Shown: positions 1,319 to 14,670 of the stretch, piece by piece
How the letters are laid out: every line of letters starts with the position of its first letter
How positions within the stretch are numbered: the stretch's first letter is position 1
Assembly (NCBI GenBank): GCA_030539495.1
Contig: JAUNRX010000014.1
Location: forward strand, 1-44,668
DNA from: a bacterium
GTDB lineage: Bacteria > Bacillota > Clostridia > Lachnospirales > Lachnospiraceae
DNA: 44,668 nt
Reading direction: 5' to 3'
Notes under the pieces: model-generated
What the model saw: the letters and a program-made list of their open reading frames with translations, nothing else
The model's database searches: none
Told to the model about the DNA's origin: nothing
Position numbers and translations under genes: made by a program

Positions 1319-1789
1319 TTGGATAATAAAATGAAATATATGGGATTCGGAAAGAAGCAAATGGAGCATAACACTGATAAGGTTCAGATTATCGTAACTA
1401 ATCGTGAACTAAAGGAGATTGTAACAAGGATTACTAATAATTATTGTGTAAAATATGCTCTTCCAATGATAGATTCTGTAGTAATAGAAGTAGAGCGAGG
1501 GTTCACACAGTCGCTTCTTACTTGTGATTACCACATAAAAAAAGAAATGAATGTTGAGATGGATACCATTATTCATGCGCAAATGAATCGTGCTGCCCAT
1601 ATTATTCAGTTGGACACAGCAAGACAGCAACGTGTATTTGGTGAAGGTGTTGGAGTTGCTGTCCTTGACACAGGAGTTTATCCACATTCAGACTTAACAT
1701 TTGGAAAAAATCGAATTATAGCATTTTATGATGTTGTGAATGGAAGACGATATCCATATGATGATAATGGTCATGGAACACATGCGTGA
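1319..1789 (+). CDS. AprX-like S8 subtilase, 5' part, interrupted by the integrative element
   Basis: N-terminal piece of a subtilisin-family serine protease. It carries the catalytic Asp117 (VAVLDTGV) and catalytic His152 (DDNGHGTH), then reads one element-derived Ala codon and stops at TGA (1787-1789). The Asn and Ser of the active site are missing here; they lie 8 kb away at 9758-10498. No signal peptide is visible, and an N-terminal region of about 95 residues precedes the catalytic core, as in cytoplasmic AprX-type proteases. TTG at 1319 or ATG at 1331 could start it; neither has a strong ribosome binding site. As it stands the fragment cannot be an active protease. Fusing codons 1-155 to the piece starting at 9758 gives a 401-residue protein with the family motif HGTHVxGIIAGNG intact, so this is an interrupted gene rather than decayed DNA. 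Confidence 0.9.
   Translation: MDNKMKYMGFGKKQMEHNTDKVQIIVTNRELKEIVTRITNNYCVKYALPMIDSVVIEVERGFTQSLLTCDYHIKKEMNVEMDTIIHAQMNRAAHIIQLDTARQQRVFGEGVGVAVLDTGVYPHSDLTFGKNRIIAFYDVVNGRRYPYDDNGHGTHA
1779..1784 (+). other. attL core of the serine-recombinase element (CACATG)
   Basis: Left junction. CACATG here is repeated at 9753-9758. To its left is protease coding sequence (attB half). To its right is element DNA containing the right half of attP: TGCGTGA at 1783-1789 and the arm ATTCCTA at 1797-1803. The central CA (1781-1782) is the inferred crossover dinucleotide. Confidence 0.85.
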
Positions 1790-1907
1790 AGACACTATTC
1801 CTATCGAAGGAAGAACATTATTGTAGGAAATGGGACATGCTATAAGTAGGCCTAATGATATAATAAATGACATAACAAATTGAAATACAAATATTACCAA
1901 ATAGTCG

Positions 1908-1936
1908 TTGTAAGTTTCGCGAAACGGTGCTACTAT
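1908..1936 (+). promoter_or_regulatory. candidate promoter of the maltodextrin operon with a 12-bp palindrome in its spacer
   Basis: -35 TTGTAA (1908-1913), 17-base spacer, -10 TACTAT (1931-1936); each box matches consensus in 4 of 6 positions. The spacer opens with GTTTCGCGAAAC (1914-1925), a perfect 12-bp palindrome. That placement, between the two boxes, is a classic repressor site. The promoter lies about 125 bases upstream of the binding-protein gene and just upstream of two LacI-type operators. Confidence 0.45.
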
Positions 1937-1951
1937 ATAACCATGAAATAT

Positions 1952-1977
1952 CGGAAACGTTACCGATAACGTTACCG
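1952..1977 (+). promoter_or_regulatory. two tandem LacI-family operators
   Basis: CGGAAACGTTACCG (1952-1965) and CGATAACGTTACCG (1964-1977) are each imperfect palindromes (12 of 14 bases symmetric) centred on CG, the layout of LacI/MalR-type operators. They share AACGTTACCG and their centres are 12 bp apart, so they sit on nearly the same face of the helix. They lie just downstream of the candidate promoter. The likely ligand is the LacI-type regulator encoded at 6884-7924 in the same element, which is an inference. Confidence 0.6.
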
Positions 1978-2060
1978 CTATAAACACAACCGTACTAATC
2001 GAAGAGGATAATAGGCTACTTAAGAAAGTAAATAAGCAATGAAAAGAAGGAGAGAGAAGT

Positions 2061-3410
2061 ATGAAAAAGAAGCTTATTAGCATGCTCATGATTCTGGTTG
2101 TAGCAGCAATCTATCTTACTGGCTGTGGGGATAGTGACAGTAAGAAGGCATCCAATGACGGCACAAAGAAAGGTAAGGTTTATTATCTAAGTTTCAAGCC
2201 TGAATCTGATCAGATCTGGCAGAACATTGCCAAAGAGTATCAGAAAGAAAAGGGCATCGAAGTCAAGGTTGTAACTGCAGCAAATGGTACATATGAACAA
2301 ACCTTGAAATCAGAAATTGCGAAATCAGATGCACCAACATTATTCCAGATTAATGGTCCAGTAGGCTATCAAAATTGGAAAGATCATTGCCTCGACTTAA
2401 AGGATACTGATTTATATAGCTGGTTAATCGATAAGAATATGGCAGTAAAAGATGGCGACGGTGTTTATGGTATTCCATATGTTGTTGAAGGATATGGCAT
2501 TATTTATAATGAAGAGATTATGGACAAGTACTTTGCATTAAGTGACAAAGCTGTAGATATCAATTCTACATCAGAAATCAAGAGCTTTGACATGTTAAAG
2601 AAAGTTGCAGAAGACATGACCGCTAAGAAAGATAAGTTAGGCATTGAAGGCGTATTTGCTTCAACCTCTTTATTACCAGGTGATGACTGGAGATGGCAGA
2701 CTCATTTAGCTAACTTACCAATCTATTATGAATATAAAGACAAAGGAATTAATGATACAGATAAGCTTGAATTCAAATATGCAGAGAATTTCAAGAATAT
2801 ATTTGACCTATATATCAATAATTCATGTACAAAGCCACAAATGTTAGGCAGTAAATCAGTAGTTGACTCAATGGCAGAGTTTGCTCTTGGCAAAGTTGCA
2901 ATGGTTCAGAATGGTAACTGGGGCTGGTCACAGATTGCTGAGACGAAAGGTAATGTTGTAAAAGAGGATAAAGTTAAATTCCTTCCTATCTATACAGGTA
3001 TGCCAGAAGAAGAAAAACAAGGCTTATGTATTGGTACTGAGAACTTCTTCTGTATTAACAGTAAGGCATCCAAAGAAGACCAGCAGGCTTCTATTGATTT
3101 TATACAGTGGTTATATAACTCTGATTACGGCAAAAAAACTGTAACCAACGATTTGAAGTTTATTTCTCCATTCTCAACATTTAAAGATGATGAGAAACCT
3201 ACGGACCCATTAGCAAAAGAAGTAATTAAGTACATGAGTGACACTTCCTTGAATACAGTATCATGGAACTTCACTTCTTTCCCAAGCCAGACGTTCAAAG
3301 ATAATTTTGGAGCAGGCTTATTACAATATGCAAATGGCAAGGAGTCTTGGGACGATCTAAAAGCAGCAGTAATTAAAGATTGGGAAGCAGAAAAAACTGC
3401 TACGAAGTAA
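2061..3410 (+). CDS. malE: carbohydrate ABC transporter substrate-binding lipoprotein (maltodextrin type)
   Basis: Captures sugar outside the cell and delivers it to the permeases encoded just downstream. The 449-residue product begins with a lipoprotein signal peptide (MKKKLISMLMILVVAAIYLTGC; lipobox LTGC, acylated Cys22) and continues as a family 1 extracellular solute-binding protein. It keeps aromatic residues and the 'MVQNGNWGWSQI' segment common in sugar binders. The start has a good site (AGGAGAG) upstream. A maltodextrin substrate is inferred from the co-transcribed GH77 amylomaltase and the LacI-type regulator; binding residues cannot be assigned from sequence alone. The gene is first in the operon inside the element and is separated from the permeases by about 250 bases holding a strong hairpin. 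Confidence 0.85.
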   Translation: MKKKLISMLMILVVAAIYLTGCGDSDSKKASNDGTKKGKVYYLSFKPESDQIWQNIAKEYQKEKGIEVKVVTAANGTYEQTLKSEIAKSDAPTLFQINGPVGYQNWKDHCLDLKDTDLYSWLIDKNMAVKDGDGVYGIPYVVEGYGIIYNEEIMDKYFALSDKAVDINSTSEIKSFDMLKKVAEDMTAKKDKLGIEGVFASTSLLPGDDWRWQTHLANLPIYYEYKDKGINDTDKLEFKYAENFKNIFDLYINNSCTKPQMLGSKSVVDSMAEFALGKVAMVQNGNWGWSQIAETKGNVVKEDKVKFLPIYTGMPEEEKQGLCIGTENFFCINSKASKEDQQASIDFIQWLYNSDYGKKTVTNDLKFISPFSTFKDDEKPTDPLAKEVIKYMSDTSLNTVSWNFTSFPSQTFKDNFGAGLLQYANGKESWDDLKAAVIKDWEAEKTATK

Positions 3411-3516
3411 CAGATAAAATTGAATATGCTACACCATTAGTTGACATATATGAATTACTTGATTATCAAGCACATCTTAGGCTGACTCCAAGATGACATA
3501 ATTATTGGACTAAATA

Positions 3517-3586
3517 GAAAAGGGGCTTTCGCAAGATACGTGAATATCTTCGTATGGAGATTGTATTTTGGGGTGGCCCCCTTTTC
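3517..3586 (+). terminator. hairpin between binding-protein and permease genes (partial terminator or RNA stabiliser)
   Basis: GAAAAGGGGC (3517-3526) pairs with GCCCCCTTTTC (3576-3586) with one bulged C. A second stem lies inside it (ATACG 3536-3540 with CGTAT 3550-3554). The following T-run is short, so full termination is unlikely. The position fits the common arrangement in which the binding protein is made in excess over the permeases. Confidence 0.55.
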
Positions 3587-3657
3587 TTACCTGAACAGGA
3601 ATCGTAATGGCAAAAATCACGAGAAAAAAGTGGTTTATTATAGGAAGGAGCGTATCT

Positions 3658-4503
3658 ATGCAGCGTACTTTGAAGAAATATTTCATTGTATTTACATTAC
3701 CAACATTGATTGCTTTTGCCATTGCATTTGTCATTCCATTTGTTTACGGTATCTACCTTTCCTTTTGTTCTTTTACAACAGTAACTGATACAAAATGGGT
3801 GTGGTTTGATAACTATATAAAAGCCTTTTCAAACAATAAGGAATTTTTAAATGCACTTTGGTTTACAGCAAAATTTGCAGTTGTGGCACTAGTTAGCATT
3901 AATGTATTCGCCTTTTTACTGAGTTTGGCATTAACAAGGAAGATCAAAGGAACTAATATTTTTAGAACCATTTTCTTTATGCCTAACTTAATTGGCGGTA
4001 TTGTTCTAGGATACATATGGCAGTGTATTATTAACGGTGTACTTTCAAAATTTGATTTATATCTACTAAGTGATAGCAAATATGGTTTTTGGGGATTGGT
4101 TATTCTAATGAATTGGCAAATGGTTGGATATATGATGGTCATCTATATTGCAGCATTGCAGAATGTTCCAAGTGACTTATTAGACGCAGCAAAGGTAGAT
4201 GGTGCAGGTGCAATGCAGCGATTAAGGTATATCACCATACCAATGGTAATGCCATCAATCACGATTTGTACATTCTTAACGCTTAGCAACTCATTTAAAT
4301 TATTTGATCAAAACCTAGCTCTTACTGCAGGCGCACCTGCAAAACAAACTCAGATGCTGGCATTGGATATCTATAATACATTCTATGGCAGAAATGGTTT
4401 TGAAGGTGTCGGGCAGGCAAAGGCCGTTATGTTCTTTGTCTTGGTAGCTGTAATTGCCTTTACACAGCTTCGCTTTACTAGAAGTAGGGAGGTAGAGTCA
4501 TGA
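3658..4503 (+). CDS. malF: sugar ABC transporter permease, MalF type
   Basis: One of two membrane subunits of the importer. ATG at 3658 (MQRTLKKYF) is preferred because AAGGAG lies 7 bases upstream. An in-frame ATG at 3607 would add 17 residues that overlap this ribosome binding site. The 281-residue product has six hydrophobic segments and the permease EAA-like loop 'LLDAAKVDGAGAMQRLRYITIP' region (about residues 180-200), which docks on the ATPase. Its stop overlaps the start of the next permease by four bases (ATGA), so the two are translationally coupled. It lacks the long periplasmic insert of enterobacterial MalF, as is usual for Gram-positive versions. The substrate is inferred from the operon. 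Confidence 0.88.
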   Translation: MQRTLKKYFIVFTLPTLIAFAIAFVIPFVYGIYLSFCSFTTVTDTKWVWFDNYIKAFSNNKEFLNALWFTAKFAVVALVSINVFAFLLSLALTRKIKGTNIFRTIFFMPNLIGGIVLGYIWQCIINGVLSKFDLYLLSDSKYGFWGLVILMNWQMVGYMMVIYIAALQNVPSDLLDAAKVDGAGAMQRLRYITIPMVMPSITICTFLTLSNSFKLFDQNLALTAGAPAKQTQMLALDIYNTFYGRNGFEGVGQAKAVMFFVLVAVIAFTQLRFTRSREVES

Positions 4504-5342
4504 TAAGGAAAGAGAAAATCTGCAACTTCTTTATTTATATAATACTAATTGCGTTAGTTGTATTATTCTTTGCTCCTGTATTCTTTGTAATACTGAATTC
4601 TTTTAAGGAGAAGCTTTATATAAGCAGTAATCCTTTTAGTATTCCAAAAGGAGAGATGTTTGCAAGCTTAACGAACTACACCAATGGAATTGAGAAAACT
4701 TCCTTTTTCCACGCATTTGGATGGTCTACCTTTATTACTGTAGGATCCGTATTGGTAATATTATTGTGTACAGCTATGACAGCTTGGTATATTACACGTG
4801 TAAAGTCAAAACTTACTTCCTTCTTATATTACATGTTTGTTTTTTCTATGGTTGTACCATTCCAGATGGTTATGTTTACAATGTCAAAACTGACAGATAT
4901 GTTACATATGAATAACCCATTGGGAATGATCGTAGTTTATTTAGGATTTGGCGCAGGATTATCCGTGTTTATGTTTGCCGGCTTTGTAAAGTCAATTCCG
5001 GTAGAGATTGAGGAGGCAGCATTAATTGATGGCTGCAGTCCGATAAAAATGTTTTTCACAATTATTGTACCAATCTTAAAACCAACAGTAATTACAGTGG
5101 CAATTTTGAATACAATGTGGATATGGAATGATTATCTGTTACCATATTTAACAATTGGTTTATCCACGGAATATAAGACAATTCCAGTTGTGGTCCAGTA
5201 TTTAATGGGATCATATGGTGCAAAAGACTACGGTGCATTAATGGCACTTCTTGTACTAGCAATTATTCCAATTATTATATTCTATCTTTGCTGCCAGAAA
5301 TATATTATTAAGGGCGTAGTAGCAGGGGCAGTGAAAGGTTAA
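4500..5342 (+). CDS. malG: sugar ABC transporter permease, MalG type
   Basis: Second membrane subunit, 280 residues with six hydrophobic segments. The EAA loop reads EEAALIDGCSPIKMFFTIIVP (about residues 170-190). The C-terminus 'KGVVAGAVKG' is typical of this subfamily. It overlaps the preceding permease gene by four bases. No ATPase gene (MalK/MsmX) follows; the cassette must borrow a host multitask ATPase, which is common in Firmicutes. Confidence 0.9.
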   Translation: MIRKEKICNFFIYIILIALVVLFFAPVFFVILNSFKEKLYISSNPFSIPKGEMFASLTNYTNGIEKTSFFHAFGWSTFITVGSVLVILLCTAMTAWYITRVKSKLTSFLYYMFVFSMVVPFQMVMFTMSKLTDMLHMNNPLGMIVVYLGFGAGLSVFMFAGFVKSIPVEIEEAALIDGCSPIKMFFTIIVPILKPTVITVAILNTMWIWNDYLLPYLTIGLSTEYKTIPVVVQYLMGSYGAKDYGALMALLVLAIIPIIIFYLCCQKYIIKGVVAGAVKG

Positions 5343-5359
5343 GCAAAGGAGAGATTATA

Positions 5360-6841
5360 GTGCGTGGAAGCGGTATTTTATTACCTATTTCGAGTTTGCC
5401 ATCGAAGTATGGCATTGGGAGCTTTTCAAAAGAGGCCTTTGAGTTTGTAGACCGACTCAATAAGGCTGGACAGAAGTATTGGCAAATTCTACCCATAGGT
5501 CCTACGGGATTTGGAGATTCTCCATATCAGGCACTATCTACATTTGCAGGTAATCCTTACTTTATTGATTTGGATCAATTAGTAGAAGAAGGATACTTAT
5601 TACAAGAGGAAGTTGAGAGCTTAGATGTAGGCGACGATGAAAGAAATGTCGATTATGGAAAGGTATATAATACCCGAAATGAGATATTAGAGAAGGCATT
5701 TGCACGATTTAAGGAACACATAGAAGATGAATTTTATCAATTTGAAGAAGAAAATAGTTATTGGCTGCAGGACTATGCATTTTATATGGCTGTAAAAAAA
5801 GCACATAATGGAGCAAGCTATGTTACTTGGGAAGAAGATATTCGATTAAGGAAGTCGGAAACGGTAGTCCATTATGAAAAAGTATTGGAAGAGAATATCC
5901 TATGCTATAAATTTCAGCAGTATATGTTCTTTAAGCAGTGGCACAAGTTGAAAGATTATGCAAATAGGAAAGGAATTAAGATTATCGGAGATATTCCATT
6001 CTATGTTGCAACAGATAGCGCAGACTGTTTTTCACAGCCATCTTTATTTCAATATGATGAAAAGAATACTCCAACCCATGTGGCTGGCTGTCCTCCGGAT
6101 GCATTCTCAGAGAATGGACAGCTATGGGGAAATCCACTGTATGACTGGGAATATTTAAAGAATACAGATTATGAATGGTGGATTAACCGAATTCGCCATA
6201 GCTTAATTATGTATGATATTATCCGACTGGATCATTTTAGAGGATTTGAAGAATATTATGCAATTCCAGCTGGAAGCAGTACGGCAAAAGTCGGAGCATG
6301 GAAGCGAGGACCAGGTATTGAGTTCTTTAAGACCATAAAGCGTGTGCTTGGAGATGTATCAATTATTGCAGAAGATTTGGGATTTTTAAATGAGGCAGTA
6401 TACAGTCTTGTTAGAGAAAGCGGCTTTCCTGGAATGAAAGTATTGCAATTTGCATTTGATTCTAGAGAAGACAGTGACTATCTTCCTCATAATTATGATA
6501 AGAACTGTGTGGTGTATACAGGAACCCATGACAATAATACAGTTCTTGGTTGGTATCAAGAAATTAGTAGTACGGATCAGGAATTTTTAAAGGACTATAT
6601 GAATTTGCAGGAAGACAATATGAGAGAGTTAAATTGGAATATTATCCGATTGGCATTATCTAGCGTAGCAGATACTTGCATTATACCGATTCAGGATTAT
6701 TTAGGGCTTGGAAGTGAAACAAGAATTAATCGTCCTGGATCACAGGGGGCGAATTGGAAATGGCGAATGAGAAAAAATGAATTTAGTGATGAATTAGTAA
6801 AGAAAATAAATCATTTAGTAACATTATATGGAAGAAAGTAA
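5360..6841 (+). CDS. malQ: 4-alpha-glucanotransferase (amylomaltase, GH77)
   Basis: Cytoplasmic enzyme that transfers alpha-1,4-glucan segments between maltodextrins and releases glucose, so imported maltodextrins can be used. The 493-residue length is normal. It starts at GTG 5360, nine bases after AAAGGAGAG; the MRGSGILLPISSLPS opening is the family hallmark. Catalytic residues are visible: nucleophile Asp291 (RLDHFRG), acid/base Glu338 (IIAEDLG) and Asp391 (GTHDNNT). The segment 'GDIPFYVATDSAD' and 'PPDAFS..GQLWGNPLYDW' are also conserved GH77 blocks. It lies 17 bases after the permease gene and is part of the same operon. All key motifs are intact, so the enzyme should be active. Confidence 0.95.
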   Translation: MRGSGILLPISSLPSKYGIGSFSKEAFEFVDRLNKAGQKYWQILPIGPTGFGDSPYQALSTFAGNPYFIDLDQLVEEGYLLQEEVESLDVGDDERNVDYGKVYNTRNEILEKAFARFKEHIEDEFYQFEEENSYWLQDYAFYMAVKKAHNGASYVTWEEDIRLRKSETVVHYEKVLEENILCYKFQQYMFFKQWHKLKDYANRKGIKIIGDIPFYVATDSADCFSQPSLFQYDEKNTPTHVAGCPPDAFSENGQLWGNPLYDWEYLKNTDYEWWINRIRHSLIMYDIIRLDHFRGFEEYYAIPAGSSTAKVGAWKRGPGIEFFKTIKRVLGDVSIIAEDLGFLNEAVYSLVRESGFPGMKVLQFAFDSREDSDYLPHNYDKNCVVYTGTHDNNTVLGWYQEISSTDQEFLKDYMNLQEDNMRELNWNIIRLALSSVADTCIIPIQDYLGLGSETRINRPGSQGANWKWRMRKNEFSDELVKKINHLVTLYGRK

Positions 6842-6883
6842 GAAGAGAATAATCTTACGTAATAAATGTAAGAGGGGATTAGA

Positions 6884-7924
6884 ATGGAACAGATTACAAT
6901 TAAAGATATTGCAAAACTATGTGGCGTTGGTGTGAGTACGGTTTCTAGGGCAATTAATAATCATCCAGATATAAATACAGAGACCAAAGAAATGATCTTA
7001 GAGGTTGTGAAGGAATATAATTATGTGCCCAATAATAGTGCAAGAAATTTAAAGAGATATGATGCCAAAGCTATAGCAATTTTAGTCAAAGGGATGAACA
7101 ATCCTATGTTTTCAACGATGCTTACAATTATGGAAGAGGAAATTAAGTGTAATAAATATGCCCTTGTTCTTAGGCATGTTAAGCCAAATGAAGATGAGAT
7201 TGATGTTGCTATTGAACTGGAGAATGAAAGACATTTAAGAGGAATTGTATTTTTAGGTGGTTTCTTTGTTCATTCGGAGGAAAAGCTGGCATTAATTAAT
7301 GTTCCATTTATAATCAGCACAGTGAGCAGTATTACTGAGAATATTGACAAAAGTAAGTATTCTTCAATCGCAGTGGACGATCGATTAGAAAGTTATAAGG
7401 CAGTTGAATACCTAATTAAACAGGGGCATAAAAAGATAGCGATTATAACAGCTGCAAAAGCAGATCAAAGTATTGGACGACTTAGGCTAGAAGGATATTG
7501 TAATGCATTAAAAGAATATGGAATTGAAGTACAAGAGAGCTTGATTGGATATATGCCGGAAGATTGTAGAGAGTATTCCTACCGAAATGGCTATGCAGTA
7601 ATGAAGGAGTTATTAGATCGAGGACCAAAGTTTACAGCAGTATTTGCAATTTCAGATATTTTGGCAATTGGAGCATGTAAGGCAATCTTTGAGGCAGGAA
7701 AATCAATTCCAGAGGATTACTCTGTAGTGGGGTTTGATGGAATTGAGATGGCGGGATATTATCACCCATCCATTACAACCATTAGTCAGCCGGTAAACCA
7801 ATTGGCTCAAGAGTCCATTCATATTTTATTCGATGTAATTAAAGGAAAATCCGTACATAAGCATAAGATGCTGCCGGCAGAATTATCAATCGGTGGATCA
7901 ACGAGAAATATCATACGTTTTTAG
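6884..7924 (+). CDS. LacI-family transcriptional regulator of the maltodextrin cassette
   Basis: DNA-binding sugar-responsive repressor, 346 residues. The N-terminal helix-turn-helix reads TIKDIAKLCGVGVSTVSRAI (residues 4-23), followed by the hinge helix (NNSARNLKR). The rest is a periplasmic-binding-protein-like sensor domain, including 'AIFAISDILAIGACKAI' -like and 'SVVGFDGIEMAGYYHPSITTISQP' blocks. It follows the amylomaltase gene by 42 bases with its own GAGGGG site. Position suggests that it controls the operon through the paired CG-centred operators at 1952-1977, with a maltodextrin or maltose as inducer (inference). A hairpin terminator follows. Confidence 0.92.
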   Translation: MEQITIKDIAKLCGVGVSTVSRAINNHPDINTETKEMILEVVKEYNYVPNNSARNLKRYDAKAIAILVKGMNNPMFSTMLTIMEEEIKCNKYALVLRHVKPNEDEIDVAIELENERHLRGIVFLGGFFVHSEEKLALINVPFIISTVSSITENIDKSKYSSIAVDDRLESYKAVEYLIKQGHKKIAIITAAKADQSIGRLRLEGYCNALKEYGIEVQESLIGYMPEDCREYSYRNGYAVMKELLDRGPKFTAVFAISDILAIGACKAIFEAGKSIPEDYSVVGFDGIEMAGYYHPSITTISQPVNQLAQESIHILFDVIKGKSVHKHKMLPAELSIGGSTRNIIRF

Positions 7925-7927
7925 AAG

Positions 7928-7974
7928 AAGGGATACCCAGGTAATCATTTTATTACAGGGGCAATCCCTTTTGC
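7928..7974 (+). terminator. terminator after the LacI-type regulator gene
   Basis: AAGGGAT (7928-7934) pairs with ATCCCTT (7964-7970), with an inner stem GTAAT/ATTAC (7941-7945 with 7952-7956), followed by a short T-run. It would end the metabolic operon and separate it from the recombinase genes. Confidence 0.6.
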
Positions 7975-8000
7975 ATAATGCAATAAATTAATCATAAAAT
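7971..8000 (+). promoter_or_regulatory. candidate promoter of the recombinase unit
   Basis: -35 TTGCAT (7971-7976), 18-base spacer, -10 TAAAAT (7995-8000). The -35 lies in a 13-base palindrome (TTGCATAATGCAA, 7971-7983) that could be a binding site. It is 32 bases upstream of the small ORF that precedes the recombinase. Confidence 0.4.
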
Positions 8001-8031
8001 ATAGTAAGAGATAAAGTAAAGGATATACGGT

Positions 8032-8214
8032 ATGAAGCAGGAAAATATAAAGTGTAAAATCGAGGTTGTTCATCATTTTAAGAGTGAGGATGAGAAAGAA
8101 CGAAGGAAACATTTGTATCAGATACTGCTGGAATATAAAGAGCATTTACAGGCAATACAAGAAATGGATGGAGAGGAGGAGGTAAAAAATGACCATGGCA
8201 GCCCTCTATATTAG
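8032..8214 (+). CDS. 60-residue protein coupled to the serine recombinase; candidate directionality factor
   Basis: I do not recognise a family. The product is short, charged and probably helical (many Lys, Glu and Asp; the run EDEKERRKHLYQILLEYKEH looks like one amphipathic helix, about residues 20-39). It has no cysteines beyond one near the start and no membrane segment. Its last 26 bases overlap the start of the recombinase, whose AGGAGG site lies inside this ORF, so the two are translationally coupled. Small proteins encoded beside large serine recombinases sometimes control excision, which makes this a candidate, but nothing in the sequence proves it. It could instead be a leader ORF that only couples translation. 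Confidence 0.6.
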   Translation: MKQENIKCKIEVVHHFKSEDEKERRKHLYQILLEYKEHLQAIQEMDGEEEVKNDHGSPLY

Positions 8215-9736
8215 ACTGTCCAAGGAAGATGAGGAAAAGAGATATGATGGAGATGAAAGTGAGAGTATAAAGAACCAGCGCTTGCTTTTATTACAATATG
8301 CCAGTGCCCATAGTTATCAAGTGTATAATATTTATGTAGATGAAGATTATTCAGGCCTTTATGATACAAAGCGGCCAGCATTTTACCAAATGTTAAAGGA
8401 TGCTAGAGAAGGGAAGTTTGACACGATATTGTGTAAGTCACAAAATCGTTTCTCTAGGAATATGGAACATATAGAAAAGTATTTACATAAAGAGTTTCCA
8501 TTATTAGGAGTCCGATTTATTGGAGTAGTGGATGGAACCGATACCGCATTCAGTTCTGGAAAAAAGGCAAGACAGATCAATGGACTGGTAAATGAATGGT
8601 ATTGTGAGGATTTATCAGAAAATATTAAGGCAGTGTTACAGAAGAAAATGGAGGATGGACAATATATTTCTGCATTTGCCACATATGGATATAAAAAGGA
8701 TGAGGAAGATCATCATAAGATAGTAGTGGATCAAGTAGCAGCCGGAATTGTAACCTATATTTATCAATTGTATTTGGCAGGCAATGGGATTGGAAAGATT
8801 GCAGAAATTTTATCATCTAAGCATATTCCAACACCATTACAGTATAAGCATATGCAAGGATTAAAGTATCAGACTCCGAAGGGATATTATAGTGAAAGTG
8901 GATTGTGGAGTATTTCAACAATAAAGAGAATCTTGTCAAATCCGATCTATATTGGAACATTAATTCAAGGAAGAGAACGAAAGGTTAGTTATAAAGATAA
9001 AAAGGTTGTCCTTTTACCAAAAGAGAAGTGGCATGTGATTGAACATAATCATGAGCCAATTATTAAAAAAGAGGTATTTGATCAGGTACAGACACTTCTT
9101 GGAGAACGAAGAAAGTCGTTTGGAAAAAAGACATTAGAGAATAAAGTAACGAATATATTTGCTGGGAAATTGGTTTGTGGTGACTGTAAAAAAACACTTT
9201 ATAAAGCAAGTACTAGCCGAAATAAAGCCTATCATTACTATATGTGTCAGCTGTATAAGCGATCGAATCGCAGGGAATGCAGCCGCAATGCAATTCGTTC
9301 CGATGAGTTAGAGAATGTGGTATTAGAAAATGTTAATCGTTTAGTGAAGCATTATATTACAAAGAATGAACGACAGGTATTGCAAGGAAGCTTCCATAGG
9401 GAGGATATGAAGAAGGCGGATATGGGACGCCTGGTAGGTGAAAAAGAACATATTCTAAAAGCAATGAGTATGTTATATATAGATTATTCGAAAGGATCTG
9501 TTTCTGAGAATGATCGGATAGAAATTCAAGAGCTATTATATAAGTCACTTAAGGATACCGAACGGGAGATTACCGAATTAGCGGTAACGAGCAATGAAGA
9601 GAAAGAAGAGAAAAAAAAGGAAATAGAGATTAAGAAGTTAGATTATTATTTAATACAATCGTTAATCCAAACCATTGAAGTCAGTGTAAAAGAGGATTCT
9701 GGAAAGGTTAAGCTAGTGTTCTTCTGGAATATTTAG
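8189..9736 (+). CDS. large serine recombinase (integrase of the element)
   Basis: Cuts and rejoins DNA at att sites through a 5'-phosphoserine link. The 515-residue product has an N-terminal resolvase domain with Tyr7-x-Arg9-x-Ser11 (YIRLS; Ser11 nucleophile) and Arg87/Arg90 in SQNRFSRN. The 'recombinase' domain follows (about 155-300; ISAFATYGYKKD, IYIGTLIQGR), then a zinc ribbon with Cys330, Cys333, Cys353 and Cys364. A charged helical stretch near 395-485 fits the coiled coil that governs integration versus excision. The start at 8189 has a perfect AGGAGG eight bases upstream. The stop codon TAG (9734-9736) forms part of the left attP arm, so the gene abuts its attachment site as is typical. 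Motifs are complete, so it is probably active. Confidence 0.96.
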   Translation: MTMAALYIRLSKEDEEKRYDGDESESIKNQRLLLLQYASAHSYQVYNIYVDEDYSGLYDTKRPAFYQMLKDAREGKFDTILCKSQNRFSRNMEHIEKYLHKEFPLLGVRFIGVVDGTDTAFSSGKKARQINGLVNEWYCEDLSENIKAVLQKKMEDGQYISAFATYGYKKDEEDHHKIVVDQVAAGIVTYIYQLYLAGNGIGKIAEILSSKHIPTPLQYKHMQGLKYQTPKGYYSESGLWSISTIKRILSNPIYIGTLIQGRERKVSYKDKKVVLLPKEKWHVIEHNHEPIIKKEVFDQVQTLLGERRKSFGKKTLENKVTNIFAGKLVCGDCKKTLYKASTSRNKAYHYYMCQLYKRSNRRECSRNAIRSDELENVVLENVNRLVKHYITKNERQVLQGSFHREDMKKADMGRLVGEKEHILKAMSMLYIDYSKGSVSENDRIEIQELLYKSLKDTEREITELAVTSNEEKEEKKKEIEIKKLDYYLIQSLIQTIEVSVKEDSGKVKLVFFWNI

Positions 9737-9758
9737 GAATTTAAATATCAAGCACATG
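9734..9758 (+). other. attR: left half of attP and the CACATG core
   Basis: Right junction. Element side: arm TAGGAAT (9734-9740), inner half-site TCAAGCA (9748-9754), core CACATG (9753-9758). Protease coding sequence follows. Combined with 1779-1803 it forms the predicted attP: outer arms TAGGAAT/ATTCCTA are a perfect inverted repeat and inner half-sites TCAAGCA/TGCGTGA pair at 6 of 7 positions. Both are symmetric about the CA at 9755-9756. Confidence 0.82.
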
Positions 9759-10498
9759 TGTGTGGGATCATTGCAGGAAATGGCCATGAATCAGGTGGAG
9801 AATATATGGGAATAGCTCCAAGCTGCAATATTATTGGAGTAAAAGTATTGAATAATAAAGGAAATGGTAATGTATCAGATGTATTAGCAGGTTTACAGTG
9901 GGTAGTGAATAATAAGGAACGATATAATATTAGAATAGTGAATATTTCAGTAGGAACCACGTCATCTGATTGTTATGATGAGAATTCAGCATTAGTAAAA
10001 GGTGTGAATGCTGTTTGGGATGCAGGAATAATTGTAGTAGTGGCAGCAGGAAATAATGGACCAAAACCAAAATCAATTTCAACGCCAGGAATTAGTAGGA
10101 AAGTGATTACAGTAGGTGCCTCCGATGATGATGTAAGTGTTGAACTTTCAGGAAGCAGGGCAAAAGATTATTCAGGAAGAGGACCTACGAATGCATGTAT
10201 AAAGAAGCCGGATGTGGTAGCACCAGGATCCAATATAGTTTCTTGTAATGTGACCAAGCCGAGAGGTGGATTTAACTTTTTTGCACCAAAACGAGAAGTT
10301 CAGCTTTATACGATAAAAAGTGGGACCTCTATGGCTACACCAATGGTATCGGGAGCAATTGCATTATTACTAGATAAATATCCAGAAATGACGACTCAGG
10401 AAGTTAAGCTTCGAATTAAGAATAGTTGTATTGATATGGGCCAGCCTTGGAGTAAACAGGGATGGGGACTTCTCAATATCAGAGAACTATTAAAGTGA
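9758..10498 (+). CDS. AprX-like S8 subtilase, 3' part, separated by the integrative element
   Basis: C-terminal piece of the interrupted protease. It carries the oxyanion-hole Asn99 (VVVAAGNNGP) and catalytic Ser191 (SGTSMATPMVSGA), numbered from the GTG at 9758. It begins at the Val of HGTHV, the codon next to the crossover. The GTG has no ribosome binding site, so separate translation is doubtful. In the joined gene these residues become Asn254 and Ser346 of a 401-residue protein. The reading frame is open from the junction to the TGA at 10496 with no decay, so the gene has been kept intact or was interrupted recently. Family knowledge: AprX-like proteases are cytoplasmic and non-essential in Bacillus; the role here is unknown. 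Confidence 0.9.
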   Translation: MCGIIAGNGHESGGEYMGIAPSCNIIGVKVLNNKGNGNVSDVLAGLQWVVNNKERYNIRIVNISVGTTSSDCYDENSALVKGVNAVWDAGIIVVVAAGNNGPKPKSISTPGISRKVITVGASDDDVSVELSGSRAKDYSGRGPTNACIKKPDVVAPGSNIVSCNVTKPRGGFNFFAPKREVQLYTIKSGTSMATPMVSGAIALLLDKYPEMTTQEVKLRIKNSCIDMGQPWSKQGWGLLNIRELLK

Positions 10499-10596
10499 AT
10501 AGATAAAATGGTATTAATTAATTGAATTATAAACACCATTTCGTTATAATTGATACTATAATTATTATGACGGTAAAATACTAGGGAGTAAATGAA

Positions 10597-11025
10597 ATGT
10601 TTGATTTTAAATTCGATTGGAAAGAAGAGCTTGAGATTGGGATTCCCCGAATTGATGTGCAACATAAGGAATTATTTCATATAGTAAGAGACATGGAACA
10701 ATTGCTTATTACAAGATGCATTGGTGTTAGTAATCAACAATTAATTGATGTAGTGAGACAGTTAAGAGAGTTTGTATCATATCATTTTTATGAAGAAGAA
10801 CAGCTTATGAATGAATATGATTATTCATTAAAGGAAGCTCATATTAAGTCCCATAACAAAATGAATGAAATGGTGTTAGCAATTGATTTACCTAAATTAG
10901 GAGAAATGCCATTTGATGAACTTAAAAAAATTAAAGATAATACACAGGACTGGATTTTTGAGCATATGTTTAATGCAGATAAACACATGGCATTAGAGAT
11001 TATACAGAAAATGCAACAACAATAA
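10597..11025 (+). CDS. bacteriohemerythrin
   Basis: Small cytoplasmic four-helix protein with a di-iron site that binds O2; in anaerobes it is thought to buffer or sense oxygen. The 142-residue length is normal. The iron ligands are visible in order: His in IDVQHKELF (res 22), His and Glu in SYHFYEEEQL (about 57 and 61), His in AHIKSHNKM, and His plus Asp in EHMFNADKHM. It starts at the ATG at 10597 after AGGGAG. It stands alone between the split protease gene and a strong terminator. Confidence 0.93.
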   Translation: MFDFKFDWKEELEIGIPRIDVQHKELFHIVRDMEQLLITRCIGVSNQQLIDVVRQLREFVSYHFYEEEQLMNEYDYSLKEAHIKSHNKMNEMVLAIDLPKLGEMPFDELKKIKDNTQDWIFEHMFNADKHMALEIIQKMQQQ

Positions 11026-11032
11026 AATAAGC

Positions 11033-11077
11033 AAGGGCTATTATACAGAGTAATAAAATGTATAATAGCCCTTTTTT
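11033..11077 (+). terminator. strong intrinsic terminator after the hemerythrin gene
   Basis: AAGGGCTATTATAC (11033-11046) pairs perfectly with GTATAATAGCCCTT (11060-11073), followed by six T (11072-11077). Confidence 0.9.
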
Positions 11078-11205
11078 CTATCATAATATAAAGTTGAGAA
11101 TTGTATTATTATTTACGAAATAAGGAGAAAATGAGAAAAAATGGTTTTTTAAATGAATATATATGTAAAAAACGATAAAAAAACTAATAAATATTCATTT
11201 TTCGC

Positions 11206-11234
11206 TTGCATATTCTGAATAATGTTACTATAAT
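11206..11234 (+). promoter_or_regulatory. promoter of the YjiH-family gene
   Basis: -35 TTGCAT (11206-11211), 17-base spacer, -10 TATAAT (11229-11234), about 40 bases before the start codon. Confidence 0.6.
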
Positions 11235-11274
11235 GCAATAAGATACACGTAACAAACAAGGAACAGGAGTAAGT

Positions 11275-12636
11275 ATGGAAAAATCAAATCGTAATTTACA
11301 AAATTATTTGAAATTTATTCTTCCGTCATTAGTCGGAATTGTTTTATTTATTCTTCCAATTAATGATCATGGACAGTTTACAATACCTATTGCAGTATTA
11401 TCTAATTTATTAATGGAGTTTTTTGCAAAGTATATTAATGTTATTTTAGTCGTGTTAATTTGCACTTCCTTTTTTGGAAGTATTCTTATAAAAGTTATTA
11501 AAAAAATAAATTCGGAAACAAAGCTATTAAAATTTGAGTTAATTGCAACTTTATTTGATATTAAGCCACTTAGCTTAGTAATCCGTGGAATATCAACAGT
11601 ATATGTTGTGATTACATACTTCTTTCCACAGTATGAAGTCATTGCATCTACAGCAACAGGAGGACTTGTATTTTCAGACTTGCTACCTGTATTATTTAGT
11701 ATTTTTTTATTAGCAGGAATTTGTCTTCCTTTATTATTAAACTTTGGTCTATTAGAGTTTGTTGGAACCCTATTAATCAAAGTAATGCGTCCAGTATTTG
11801 GGCTGCCAGGAAGAAGTGCAGTAGATGCAATTGCTTCTTGGTTAGGTGATGGAACAATCGGTGTATTATTAACAAGCAAACAATATGAGGACGGTTACTA
11901 TACAGAAAAAGAAGCATGTGTCATTGGGACAAACTTCTCCTTAGTATCCATTACATTCAGCCTTGTTGTCATTAATACGGTTGGTCTAGGAAATATGTTT
12001 TTACAATTTTATTTAACAGTGACATTTGCATGTATCATCGCAGCTATTGTAATCCCTAAATTACCACCATTATCAAGAAAACGTGATACGTTGATTGATG
12101 GAACAAAACCAGAACATTTAGAGGAACAGGAAGGCAAGGCAAGCGCATCTTACGGCGTGCAATGTGCATTAGAAAAAGTTGAAAATATTAATGTATTTGA
12201 AAGTATTATCATTGATGGCATGAAGAATGTAATCGATATGTGGATTAGTGTAATTCCAATCGTAATGATGGTTGGAACAACAGCCCTAATTATAGCAGAA
12301 TATACGCCAATCTTTAAATATTTAGGACTTCCATTTGTACCAATTTTACAAGTATTAGGACTTCCGGAAGCACATGCAGCAGCTCAGGCAATGTTTGCAG
12401 GCTTTGCAGATATGTTAATTCCATCCGTTATGGTAGCAGATTCTGTGCAAAGTGATATCACAAGATTTGTTGTTGCAGCGGTATCAGTTTCTCAGTTAAT
12501 TTATTTATCTGAGGTTGGAGCATTATTACTTGCTTCCAAGATCCCTGTAAAATTAAAAGATTTAGTGATTATATTTATTGAACGTACCTTAATCACGCTA
12601 CCGATTATTGCAGGGATTGCGCATCTATTATTCTAG
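11275..12636 (+). CDS. YjiH-family membrane protein with nucleoside-recognition (Gate) domains
   Basis: Polytopic inner-membrane protein of 453 residues with roughly ten hydrophobic helices. The segments 'GLPGRSAVDAIASWLGDGTIGVLLTSKQYEDGYYTEKEACVIGTNFS' region (about 178-224) and the C-terminal 'PEAHAAAQAMFAGFADMLIPSVM' repeat-like block (about 364-386) are the Gate-domain signature of YjiH proteins. These are related to nucleoside transporter gates and to spore maturation proteins SpmA/SpmB. The transported solute is not established for the family. It starts at ATG 11275 after a GGAG site and forms a single-gene unit with its own promoter and terminator. Confidence 0.82.
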   Translation: MEKSNRNLQNYLKFILPSLVGIVLFILPINDHGQFTIPIAVLSNLLMEFFAKYINVILVVLICTSFFGSILIKVIKKINSETKLLKFELIATLFDIKPLSLVIRGISTVYVVITYFFPQYEVIASTATGGLVFSDLLPVLFSIFLLAGICLPLLLNFGLLEFVGTLLIKVMRPVFGLPGRSAVDAIASWLGDGTIGVLLTSKQYEDGYYTEKEACVIGTNFSLVSITFSLVVINTVGLGNMFLQFYLTVTFACIIAAIVIPKLPPLSRKRDTLIDGTKPEHLEEQEGKASASYGVQCALEKVENINVFESIIIDGMKNVIDMWISVIPIVMMVGTTALIIAEYTPIFKYLGLPFVPILQVLGLPEAHAAAQAMFAGFADMLIPSVMVADSVQSDITRFVVAAVSVSQLIYLSEVGALLLASKIPVKLKDLVIIFIERTLITLPIIAGIAHLLF

Positions 12637-12695
12637 ATAAGAGTTTCCAAGCAATAGGACGTAGAAAAAGAAAAAAAGTAGTTGTTTATCAAATG

Positions 12696-12732
12696 ACAGC
12701 TGTCACCGAAACCGAGTGGCAGCTGTTTTTTT
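12696..12732 (+). terminator. intrinsic terminator after the YjiH-family gene
   Basis: ACAGCTGTCAC (12696-12706) pairs with GTGGCAGCTGT (12716-12726) with one mismatch, followed by seven T. Confidence 0.9.
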
Positions 12733-12793
12733 CTTTGGCATTAAAAGGTGGAAAAAAATCTGATAAAGTGTAAAAATTAGTATAGGTTAAAAC

Positions 12794-12821
12794 TTGAAAT
12801 TAGCGAAAGATAAGGTACAAT
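12794..12821 (+). promoter_or_regulatory. promoter of the YesM/YesN two-component genes
   Basis: -35 TTGAAA (12794-12799), 16-base spacer, -10 TACAAT (12816-12821), 49 bases upstream of the kinase start codon. Confidence 0.55.
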
Positions 12822-12870
12822 GGTAGATATAAGGAAAAATATAGAATTTACATAACTTATAGGTGAAAGA

Positions 12871-14670
12871 ATGAGATATTTAAAAAAATGGCTACATGAA
12901 CTTTGTCGATTGCATAGAAATATAAAGCTTAAAGAGAGATTACTCATTGTTTATACACTATGTGGGATTATACCATTGGTGGCGGTTAGTGTTTATTTTA
13001 GTAATGGGACTAACAATACATTGATCAAACAGTCGGAGCAATCAGAGTTTGCTGAACTATCCTTAATTCAGGATGCATTAAATGAAAATATTAGGGTAGT
13101 CACCGATGTATCAAAAAAGCTATATTTTGATCCGAACATTGAGCATATTGCATTTTCTAATTACAACAGTTATAAAGAGGTGTTAAATGACTATCGGAAT
13201 TACACAAAGTTTACAGAATATCTTACCGATTATCATCAGGAGATTAGTAGCATTACTATGTATCTAACAAATAAGACGATTGCAAATAGTGGTAGCTTTA
13301 TTTATGCTGATCAGAATATTCGTAATTCAGAATGGTACAAGGATACTATTTTAGCCGATGGAAAACCAATTTGGAGTTATGTATACAGCAATTTTAATAT
13401 GAGGAATTCGCTTCGATTAACAAGGGTAATTAAGACGGCAGAAGGTAAGACAGTAGGCGTACTCTCTATTGTAATGCAGAACAAGCGGACGGAGCTCCCG
13501 ATAGCTAATCGCAGTAACAACACAGTAATGCTATTAAATGATAAAGAAGTAATACATACAAATAATCAGGATATCGACCTAAAAGAACTGATTCAGCTAG
13601 TTCAGTCCATACCTGAAGATGAAAATGAAAACTATAAAAAGGTTATTTATAATGATGAAACTTGTATCCTGACATATGAGAGAATTCGACCAACCTATTC
13701 AGAGTCCTACTTTACGATTGCAAGCATTCGGCCATATAGTGAGATTCTGGCAGCAACAGATCATAGTAAGCGTACAGGATTTTTCTTTATAGTGATATGT
13801 GTTTCTCTATCGTTAATCTTAATCATTACATTTTCCCATAAGTTTAGTCAACGAATGAATATACTGAAGCGTGAAATGCATAAGGCAGCGAATGGGGATT
13901 TTCATATTGAAAGTGTATCAGGACAAAATGATGAGATTAGCGAATTATATGATGATCTACATAAGATGATTGAAAGTATTCAGATATTAATGTCTAAGAT
14001 TGTTGAAGAACAGGTGCAAAAAGAAAAGATATATTCAAGACAAAAGGACGTTGAATTTAAGATGCTGGCAAGTCAAATCAACCCTCATTTTCTTTATAAT
14101 ACGTTAGAGACCATTCGAATGAAAGCAAGAGTAAATCATCAAAGTGATATAGAAGATTTAGTAAAGATGCTTGCAAAAATGATGCGAAGGAATATTCAGG
14201 TAGGCGACCGACTTGTCTCGATAAAGTCTGAAATTGAGTTAGTAGAGTATTACCTGAAAATTCAGCATTATCGATTTGGAGATCGTATTCAGTATAAGAT
14301 TGAAGTGGAAAAAGAGTTAGAGAATAAGCCAATTTTACCATTGCTAATTCAGCCTATTGTTGAAAATGCATTTGTACATGGGCTGGAATCCAAAGAGGGA
14401 TCTGGCTTGTTGAAGATTGTAGTGAGAAAGCAAGAGAGAACAATTCAGATCATAGTAGAGGATAATGGCATTGGAATTTCAACGAATCATCTAGAGGAAC
14501 TTTTAGCATCTATGAATGATTTAGATGAATTAGATAAAAGTCATATCGGACTAAGTAATGTAAATCAAAGGATTAAACTTCTATATGGCATGGAGTATGG
14601 AATTATGATTGAGACAGTTGAAAATCAGGGAACAACTGTAGTGATTTCATTACCTATAGAAGCTGATTAA
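12871..14670 (+). CDS. YesM-type sensor histidine kinase
   Basis: Membrane kinase that senses an extracellular cue and phosphorylates the regulator encoded 24 bases downstream. The 599-residue product has a first membrane helix (about 24-45), an extracellular sensor region of about 260 residues, a second helix (about 305-325), a HAMP linker and a His_kinase domain with His406 in QINPHFLYNTLE. It ends with an ATPase domain holding the N-box (VENAFVHG) and G-box (VEDNGIGIS). The QINPHFLYN form is the LytS/YesM subclass, which in Firmicutes usually controls a neighbouring oligosaccharide transporter. That fits the Lpl-type permeases and binding proteins downstream. Confidence 0.92.
   Translation: MRYLKKWLHELCRLHRNIKLKERLLIVYTLCGIIPLVAVSVYFSNGTNNTLIKQSEQSEFAELSLIQDALNENIRVVTDVSKKLYFDPNIEHIAFSNYNSYKEVLNDYRNYTKFTEYLTDYHQEISSITMYLTNKTIANSGSFIYADQNIRNSEWYKDTILADGKPIWSYVYSNFNMRNSLRLTRVIKTAEGKTVGVLSIVMQNKRTELPIANRSNNTVMLLNDKEVIHTNNQDIDLKELIQLVQSIPEDENENYKKVIYNDETCILTYERIRPTYSESYFTIASIRPYSEILAATDHSKRTGFFFIVICVSLSLILIITFSHKFSQRMNILKREMHKAANGDFHIESVSGQNDEISELYDDLHKMIESIQILMSKIVEEQVQKEKIYSRQKDVEFKMLASQINPHFLYNTLETIRMKARVNHQSDIEDLVKMLAKMMRRNIQVGDRLVSIKSEIELVEYYLKIQHYRFGDRIQYKIEVEKELENKPILPLLIQPIVENAFVHGLESKEGSGLLKIVVRKQERTIQIIVEDNGIGISTNHLEELLASMNDLDELDKSHIGLSNVNQRIKLLYGMEYGIMIETVENQGTTVVISLPIEAD

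Follow-up and report, generated by a model that had tools for sequence, protein, structure and literature searches.

A probable sporulation-type intervening element in a split subtilase gene of a Lachnospiraceae bacterium

The known gene-intervening elements of sporulation lie in sigK, spoVFB, spoVR, spsM, gerE, and yabG (skin, gin, vfbin, vrin, SP-beta, and yin). Excision of the skin element of Clostridioides difficile is confined to the mother cell by CD1234, which is itself controlled by SigE and SpoIIID (available excerpt of PMC5025042). Here, we describe a 44,668-bp stretch of Lachnospiraceae DNA (assembly GCA_030539495.1, contig JAUNRX010000014.1; hereafter the window), in which a gene for an S8 AprX-like subtilase is present as two fragments with a recombinase-encoding element between them. 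We think it likely that the segment at 1781-9754 is a skin-type gene-intervening element of sporulation, whose predicted excision in the mother cell would restore the protease gene. Several features of such elements are found at this locus: a coding gene is split, a short direct repeat marks the two ends, the flanks join in frame, and the element has a site-specific recombinase of its own.

A subtilase gene split at its GHGTH motif

The two fragments are open reading frames (ORFs) on the plus strand of the window. The 5′ fragment (1319-1789) ends in GHGTHA followed by a stop codon, and the 3′ fragment is an open frame that runs from 9755 (VCGIIAG) through SGTSMA to a stop at 10498; the split point lies 3′ of the catalytic His codon. 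CACATG occurs at 1779-1784 and again at 9753-9758, a spacing of 7,974 bp. When the flanks are joined computationally, which removes 7,974 bp, the result is 401 codons with the frame intact and no internal stops. An earlier note on this DNA had reported the same fragment ends, junctions, and frame-preserving join, all of which we confirm. In the joined protein, LDTG, GHGTH, AAGNNGP, and SGTSMA start at residues 116, 151, 251, and 343, positions that fit the Asp117, His152, Asn254, and Ser346 of that note, which we take to be the catalytic residues within these motifs. By itself, the right half matches Peptidase_S8 (E 7e-43), and the left half has no match in a Pfam scan. That the halves belong to one gene is borne out by nine intact relatives, in which the left half aligns immediately N-terminal to the right half.

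Two further species of the genus have the same element. In a search of 98 relatives, the closest relatives of the recombinase were those of G001 (86%) and G002 (65%), with the source genome designated G000. In both species, the element sits at the same codon, its genes follow the same order (solute-binding protein, permease, permease, GH77, LacI, small ORF, recombinase), and the recombinase ends 22 bp upstream of the right subtilase half. Element lengths in the three species are 7,974, 7,976, and 7,982 bp. Because the split and gene order recur, the split is not due to chance. Since the ends in G002 have only CACA in common, the crossover dinucleotide is probably CA (1781-1782 and 9755-9756).

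Both subtilase fragments, the recombinase, and the small ORF are under strong purifying selection, as measured pairwise among the three species by the ratio (omega) of nonsynonymous (dN) to synonymous (dS) substitution according to Nei and Gojobori. For the right half, omega is 0.030 between G000 and G001 and 0.037 and 0.050 against G002 (dS 0.74, 2.6, and 2.1). For the left half, omega is 0.116 between G000 and G001 (dN 0.058, dS 0.503); against G002, where this half is truncated by the contig end, dS is saturated and dN is 0.20-0.23 over 92 codons. Omega is 0.059 for the recombinase and 0.068 for the small ORF (the latter between G000 and G001). None of the three joined genes has an internal stop or a frame break. 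Therefore, both halves are still in use, rather than dead since the common ancestor. Given the shared place and order, the near-equal lengths, and the selection on the fragments, these data point to an element that has long been held in place and from which the gene may be restored by excision.

The two ends of the element form a symmetric site. Its left arm, AGGAAT, lies at 9735-9740, and its right arm, ATTCCT, at 1797-1802; G001 has ATTCCT at the same distance from CA, and G002 has ATTCCC. In all three species, the ends are near-palindromic around CA, with the form AGGAAT-N14-CA-N14-ATTCC(T/C) and GGAAT equidistant from CA, and the spacers differ. The arm pair from the element ends matches at 14, 17, and 12 of 25 positions (G000, G001, and G002), compared with 10, 9, and 9 for the arms of the empty site and 6-11 for attL and attR. 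This symmetry is what would be expected of a retained attP-like recombination site of a serine integrase.

The recombinase gene (8189-9736, plus strand) encodes 515 amino acids (aa) with the Pfam Resolvase, Recombinase, and zinc-ribbon domains and a Ser near the N-terminus, as in large serine recombinases. Ser11 (in YIRLSKED) is invariant in the three species and is presumably the catalytic residue. Among PDB sequences, the recombinase profile matches YokA best (9dxh, E 1.6e-17). A 60-aa ORF (8032-8214, plus strand; 54 aa in G002) overlaps the recombinase start and is probably a candidate recombination directionality factor.

In G003, the fourth genome of the genus, the subtilase gene is intact (386 aa), and no recombinase of this kind was found at E 1e-60. 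The gene is likewise intact in eight more genomes, and hence in all nine of the relatives for which we fetched surrounding regions (12 kb for G027, 15-18 kb for each of the other eight).

Association with sporulation and promoter motifs

The subtilase is associated with sporulation across the family. We searched 397 family genomes with the right half and found 234 carriers at E 1e-40; spoIVA is present in 257 of the same genomes. Both genes occur in 228 genomes, the subtilase alone in 6, spoIVA alone in 29, and neither in 134. Thus, spoIVA is found in 228 of 234 carriers vs 29 of 163 noncarriers (odds ratio 176, Fisher P 7e-68). This P value is too small because the genomes are related, yet the contrast with a control gene is still large: for hemerythrin (201 of 397 genomes), the corresponding counts are 166, 35, 91, and 105, and the odds ratio is 5.5. 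The source bacterium is probably spore-forming, with spo0A, spoIVA, and an intact 216-aa sigK. Stops were listed at first for this sigK, but we rejected an interruption in view of the intact ORF. The G001, G002, G052, G091, G081, and G340 genomes also have spoIVA. In C. difficile, the intracellular serine protease gene isp (CD2000), a possible counterpart of the present gene, appears in the SigE regulon list in the available part of PMC3789822.

Upstream of both transcription units are motifs resembling sporulation promoters. A SigK-like motif, AC-N16-CATACGTAA, matches 7 of 8 positions at 1266-1292 on the plus strand, with its −10 element starting 35 nt upstream of the TTG start of the split gene; it is also present in G001. 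Of 52 subtilase genes (those of G000, G001, and 50 relatives), 30 have at least 7 of 8 positions matched upstream, against a mean of 6.9 and a maximum of 15 in 300 shuffles, and on the reverse strand for 12 of 52. Six of the 52 have a perfect motif (shuffle mean 0.29). In a strict scan of the same genes, SigA gave 4.

A SigE-like motif, TGCATAAT-N13-CATAAAAT, precedes the small-ORF/recombinase operon (7972-8000, plus strand) and is the same in G001. The score is 10 in G002 and the full 12 of 12 in the other two species; the −10 element starts 39 nt (G000 and G001) or 41 nt (G002) upstream of the small ORF. A score of 12 is reached at 3 of 89,336 window positions. Shuffle P values are 0.002 (G000), 0.0035 (G001), and 0.045 (G002), and the joint sum was reached in 0 of 2,000 shuffles.

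Excision, its timing, the use of the promoters, and the role of the small ORF can be pictured as follows. In growing cells, the element would keep the subtilase gene split. In the mother cell, SigE would turn on the small-ORF/recombinase operon, and the recombinase, with the small ORF probably providing its directionality factor, would recombine CA with CA. A 7,974-bp circle would leave, rebuilding the 401-codon protease gene, which would then be transcribed from the SigK-type promoter. The mother cell would die and the forespore would retain the element, which would therefore keep the sugar operon safe in the germ line. The proposed sequence of SigE, excision, and SigK matches what the available excerpts report for C. 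difficile skin (PMC5025042) and gin (PMC5595907). A sporulation-linked protease would thereby be named.

Cargo, related recombinases, and other split genes

Between the left junction and the small ORF lie five plus-strand genes: an extracellular solute-binding protein (2061-3410; SBP_bac_8; omega 0.055 between G000 and G001), two ABC permeases (3607-4503 and 4500-5342; both BPD_transp_1), a GH77 4-alpha-glucanotransferase (5360-6841; Glyco_hydro_77, E 4e-186), and a LacI-family regulator (6884-7924; LacI and Peripla_BP_3). These contents are as first described. The name maltodextrin operon is based on the GH77 gene and on a weak MalE match (E 4e-5, below the curated cut-off). The source genome has another GH77 gene (G000:C225:14156-15619), 49% identical to that of the element.

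The recombinase search returned 80 loci, the first of which (L066) is G001. These loci and the 98-relative search together revealed 12 genomes outside the genus in which the subtilase break is at GHGTH/HV and the same stretch encodes a related recombinase, in line with the earlier expectation that related elements use this motif elsewhere. Cultured carriers of this kind of split include Anaerotignum sp. MB30-C6 and Tyzzerella sp. An114. Both halves lie in one stretch, 5.2-8.1 kb apart, at L110, L114, L115, L117, and L118; one half per stretch was found at L116, L140, L178 (G340), L036 (G081), L176 (G091), L099, and in G052 (L064 and L177). The recombinase is 25-630 bp from a subtilase half, except at L114 and L118 (1.7-4.9 kb). 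The fragments of L110, L115, L116, and L117 have dN far below dS. Named by eye, the cargo comprises thiM, thiE, GntR, and TRAP transporter genes at L115 and ferritin and a MATE transporter at L118. Since other elements at the same site hold other genes, the sugar operon was apparently captured as cargo. At L076, L084, L087, and L097, an intact subtilase is nearby and the recombinase is located in another gene. In a quick-method tree, in which several branches are long, the rows that split the subtilase lie on one side, but so do 23 unlabelled rows, and a single origin of subtilase splitting is therefore not shown.

Several further observations concern split genes and short enzymes. Serine recombinases of ~300-320 aa occur at L115 (10001-10921), L110, L114, L116-L118, L120, L127, and L064; Pfam finds no zinc ribbon in those of L115 and L118, and those of L110, L115, and L116 have dN 0.12 and dS >1.3. 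They are perhaps excision-only enzymes. At L099 (1-12099), the left subtilase half lies by a related recombinase, with an ATPase, an NlpC-like gene, and other genes on the far side; this may be a conjugative element that uses the same motif. In G091, the two pieces of sigK are separated by 15.5 kb and those of spoIVA by 17 kb, and in each case a distantly related serine recombinase lies close to one of the pieces (L183, G091:C14:36000-55000; L200, G091:C6:21500-41000); counting the subtilase, this genome has three split sporulation-linked genes. At L179 (G137:C20:1-14000), subtilase halves 7.35 kb apart (5474-13740) have parE, parC, and ABC-transporter genes between them (by eye); we found no related recombinase there and rejected G137 as a recombinase-split gene. 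Short right-half frames were also set aside in G433 and G324 (where neither the left half nor a related recombinase was found) and in G246 (a frame problem or small gap); that of G340 has a related recombinase. Extra spoIVA pieces were not accepted as splits in G146 and G312 (different contigs) or in G246 and G138 (pieces close together).

Related recombinases also accompany fragments of other genes. At 28 of the 80 loci, the recombinase is found beside pieces of a DacF-like D-Ala-D-Ala carboxypeptidase, which end or begin at one common point, the SAND motif; both halves are in the stretch at >50% identity in 11 of the 28, and a half lies within 600 bp in 19. Several of these loci hold an intact second copy close by. 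In the quick tree, the 28 recombinases group as a single clade with support 100. The DacF-splitting element at L084 (8061-12060) is just 2.7 kb, and the 27 further loci are in L067-L111. The available part of PMC3789822 lists C. difficile dacF under SigG. In a 14-row recombinase clade, all 14 match the N-terminal part of a PRK06851-like ATPase at E 1e-4 (13 of 14 at E 1e-8), with the fragment within 600 bp of the recombinase in 9. The fragments that we read, all on the minus strand (L102 11576-11881, L088 12177-12494, and L077 11634-11933), stop right after DGTxPH. In the remaining, mobile-type clade, we detected none of the subtilase, DacF-like, or ATPase fragments.

Taken broadly, these loci could represent a Clostridia-wide family of large serine recombinases domesticated as switches in several sporulation-linked genes (the subtilase at its catalytic His motif, the DacF-like gene at SAND, and the PRK06851-like ATPase gene), producing programmed DNA elimination in the mother cell. 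The elements would be germ-line homes for operons (sugar uptake, TRAP transport, thiamine salvage, and ferritin), and some recombinases would have shrunk to ~300 aa, with neither a zinc ribbon nor a coiled coil. We put this forward tentatively, at slightly less than even odds. If true, programmed gene splitting in Clostridia would be far more widespread than the known cases suggest, protease and peptidoglycan-hydrolase genes would be used and cut at active-site codons, and metabolic operons would live in DNA that the mother cell discards. The element also offers a natural compact set for testing: the recombinase, its att sites, and the candidate directionality factor.

Alternative explanations and known systems

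Several observations weigh against a sporulation-specific intervening element. G000, G001, and G002 are all draft assemblies, and G001 is 8% contaminated. The sortase, hemerythrin, and nucleoside-recognition genes that flank the split gene are in none of the nine intact regions. The check for uninterrupted alleles thus showed an empty site in the gene but not at the locus, because no intact relative shares the tested flanking genes. The element-end pattern of an excised form had no match in viral_contigs. The 60-aa ORF has no family match and no match to known directionality factors. Six of the 234 subtilase carriers have no spoIVA, and the association statistics ignore kinship among genomes. 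The SigE and SigK consensuses are those of Bacillus subtilis. Taken singly, the SigE-like motif of G002 is weak (P 0.045), and the strict SigK pattern occurs upstream of only 7 of the 52 subtilase genes (shuffle mean 1.0), with strict SigE, SigG, and SigF counts of 2, 2, and 0, near the shuffle level. At score 11, the SigE-like site is found in 5 of 15 of the subtilase-splitting group, two of them from this genus, but in 2 of 28 DacF-linked (shuffle mean 0.8), 0 of 14 ATPase-linked, and 0 of 20 mobile-type recombinases. With no enrichment in groups splitting other genes, we rejected the site as a general mark of related recombinases.

Excision might instead occur, programmed or at random, in growing or stressed cells, as phase variation or bet-hedging without a special sporulation link, such that protease-positive cells lose the sugar operon. 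The directionality signals and promoters proposed here are predictions, the operon has its own LacI regulator, through which sugar state could matter, and the yin element was excised at every time point in the available text of PMC10747680. However, some lineages of the genus should then have lost the element for good, and the two closest relatives both retain it; moreover, the subtilase tracks spoIVA across the family. We regard this explanation as unlikely. Somewhat less probable still is an ordinary integrative mobile element that disrupted a gene and whose sugar genes benefit the host, which was the view of the earlier note. Large serine recombinases commonly move islands, and the element at L099, where a related recombinase uses the same motif, is larger and holds an ATPase and other nonmetabolic genes. 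Yet we found no conjugation or phage gene in the element (all ORFs of at least 60 aa listed, the nine main split-gene and insert ORFs scanned with Pfam), no near-identical DNA in 72,556 plasmid and 50,697 phage records, and no second copy of the recombinase in the source genome. Related recombinases do exist in phage records (best 47% over 69% of the query, an unannotated faecal contig). Three species share place and content despite saturated synonymous change, and the fragments are constrained; on these grounds, we rejected a recent mobile insertion as the principal explanation, and a coupling of sugar uptake to protease disruption is not supported.

It is very improbable that the insertion is stable and the halves are translated separately and assemble in trans, which would make excision unnecessary. 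Both frames are open and constrained, and the right half could start at GTG 9758, or at TTG in G002, but these starts vary between species, and the conserved recombinase and symmetric ends would be left unexplained. The skin-type element thus remains our preferred explanation.

What is new here is the target gene, the vertical retention across species, the metabolic cargo, and the signs of a wider family. In full texts, excluding subscription papers and preprints, we found no report of split subtilase, dacF, or ATPase targets of this kind. The comparisons that follow draw on the available excerpts of the papers cited. Like our element, gin in gerE of Bacillus cereus ATCC10987 is nonphage and has a short direct repeat and a serine recombinase, and, as we predict here, it uses an extra factor and its gene is rejoined in sporulation; unlike our element, gin lies in a gene that does not encode a protease, spans 28.6 kb with 31 genes, mostly of unknown function, and three recombinases, and has an excision shown by experiment, whereas here it is predicted from sequence (PMC5595907). 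The skin elements in sigK of B. subtilis and C. difficile share a large serine recombinase and have the mother-cell control and small directionality factor that we predict here, but they are prophage remnants in another gene, and the C. difficile recombinase is expressed constitutively from a gene apart from CD1234 (PMC5025042, PMC6957869). In Clostridium botulinum, yin splits a spore protease gene, yabG, which is thought to be SigK-controlled, and its recombinase has the same three Pfam domains; that protease is a cysteine protease, and the element is prophage-like and described as unique to one strain (PMC10747680). SP-beta, with its integrase SprA/YokA, restores a mother-cell gene (spsM) through a serine recombinase but is an active prophage in another gene (PMC4191935). 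Last, XisF of the fdxN element in heterocyst-forming cyanobacteria rebuilds a gene by excision in a terminal cell (NCBIfam NF041201; PMC6957869), although it serves nitrogen fixation in cyanobacteria and our recombinase matches its model below the curated cut-off (104 vs 375 bits).

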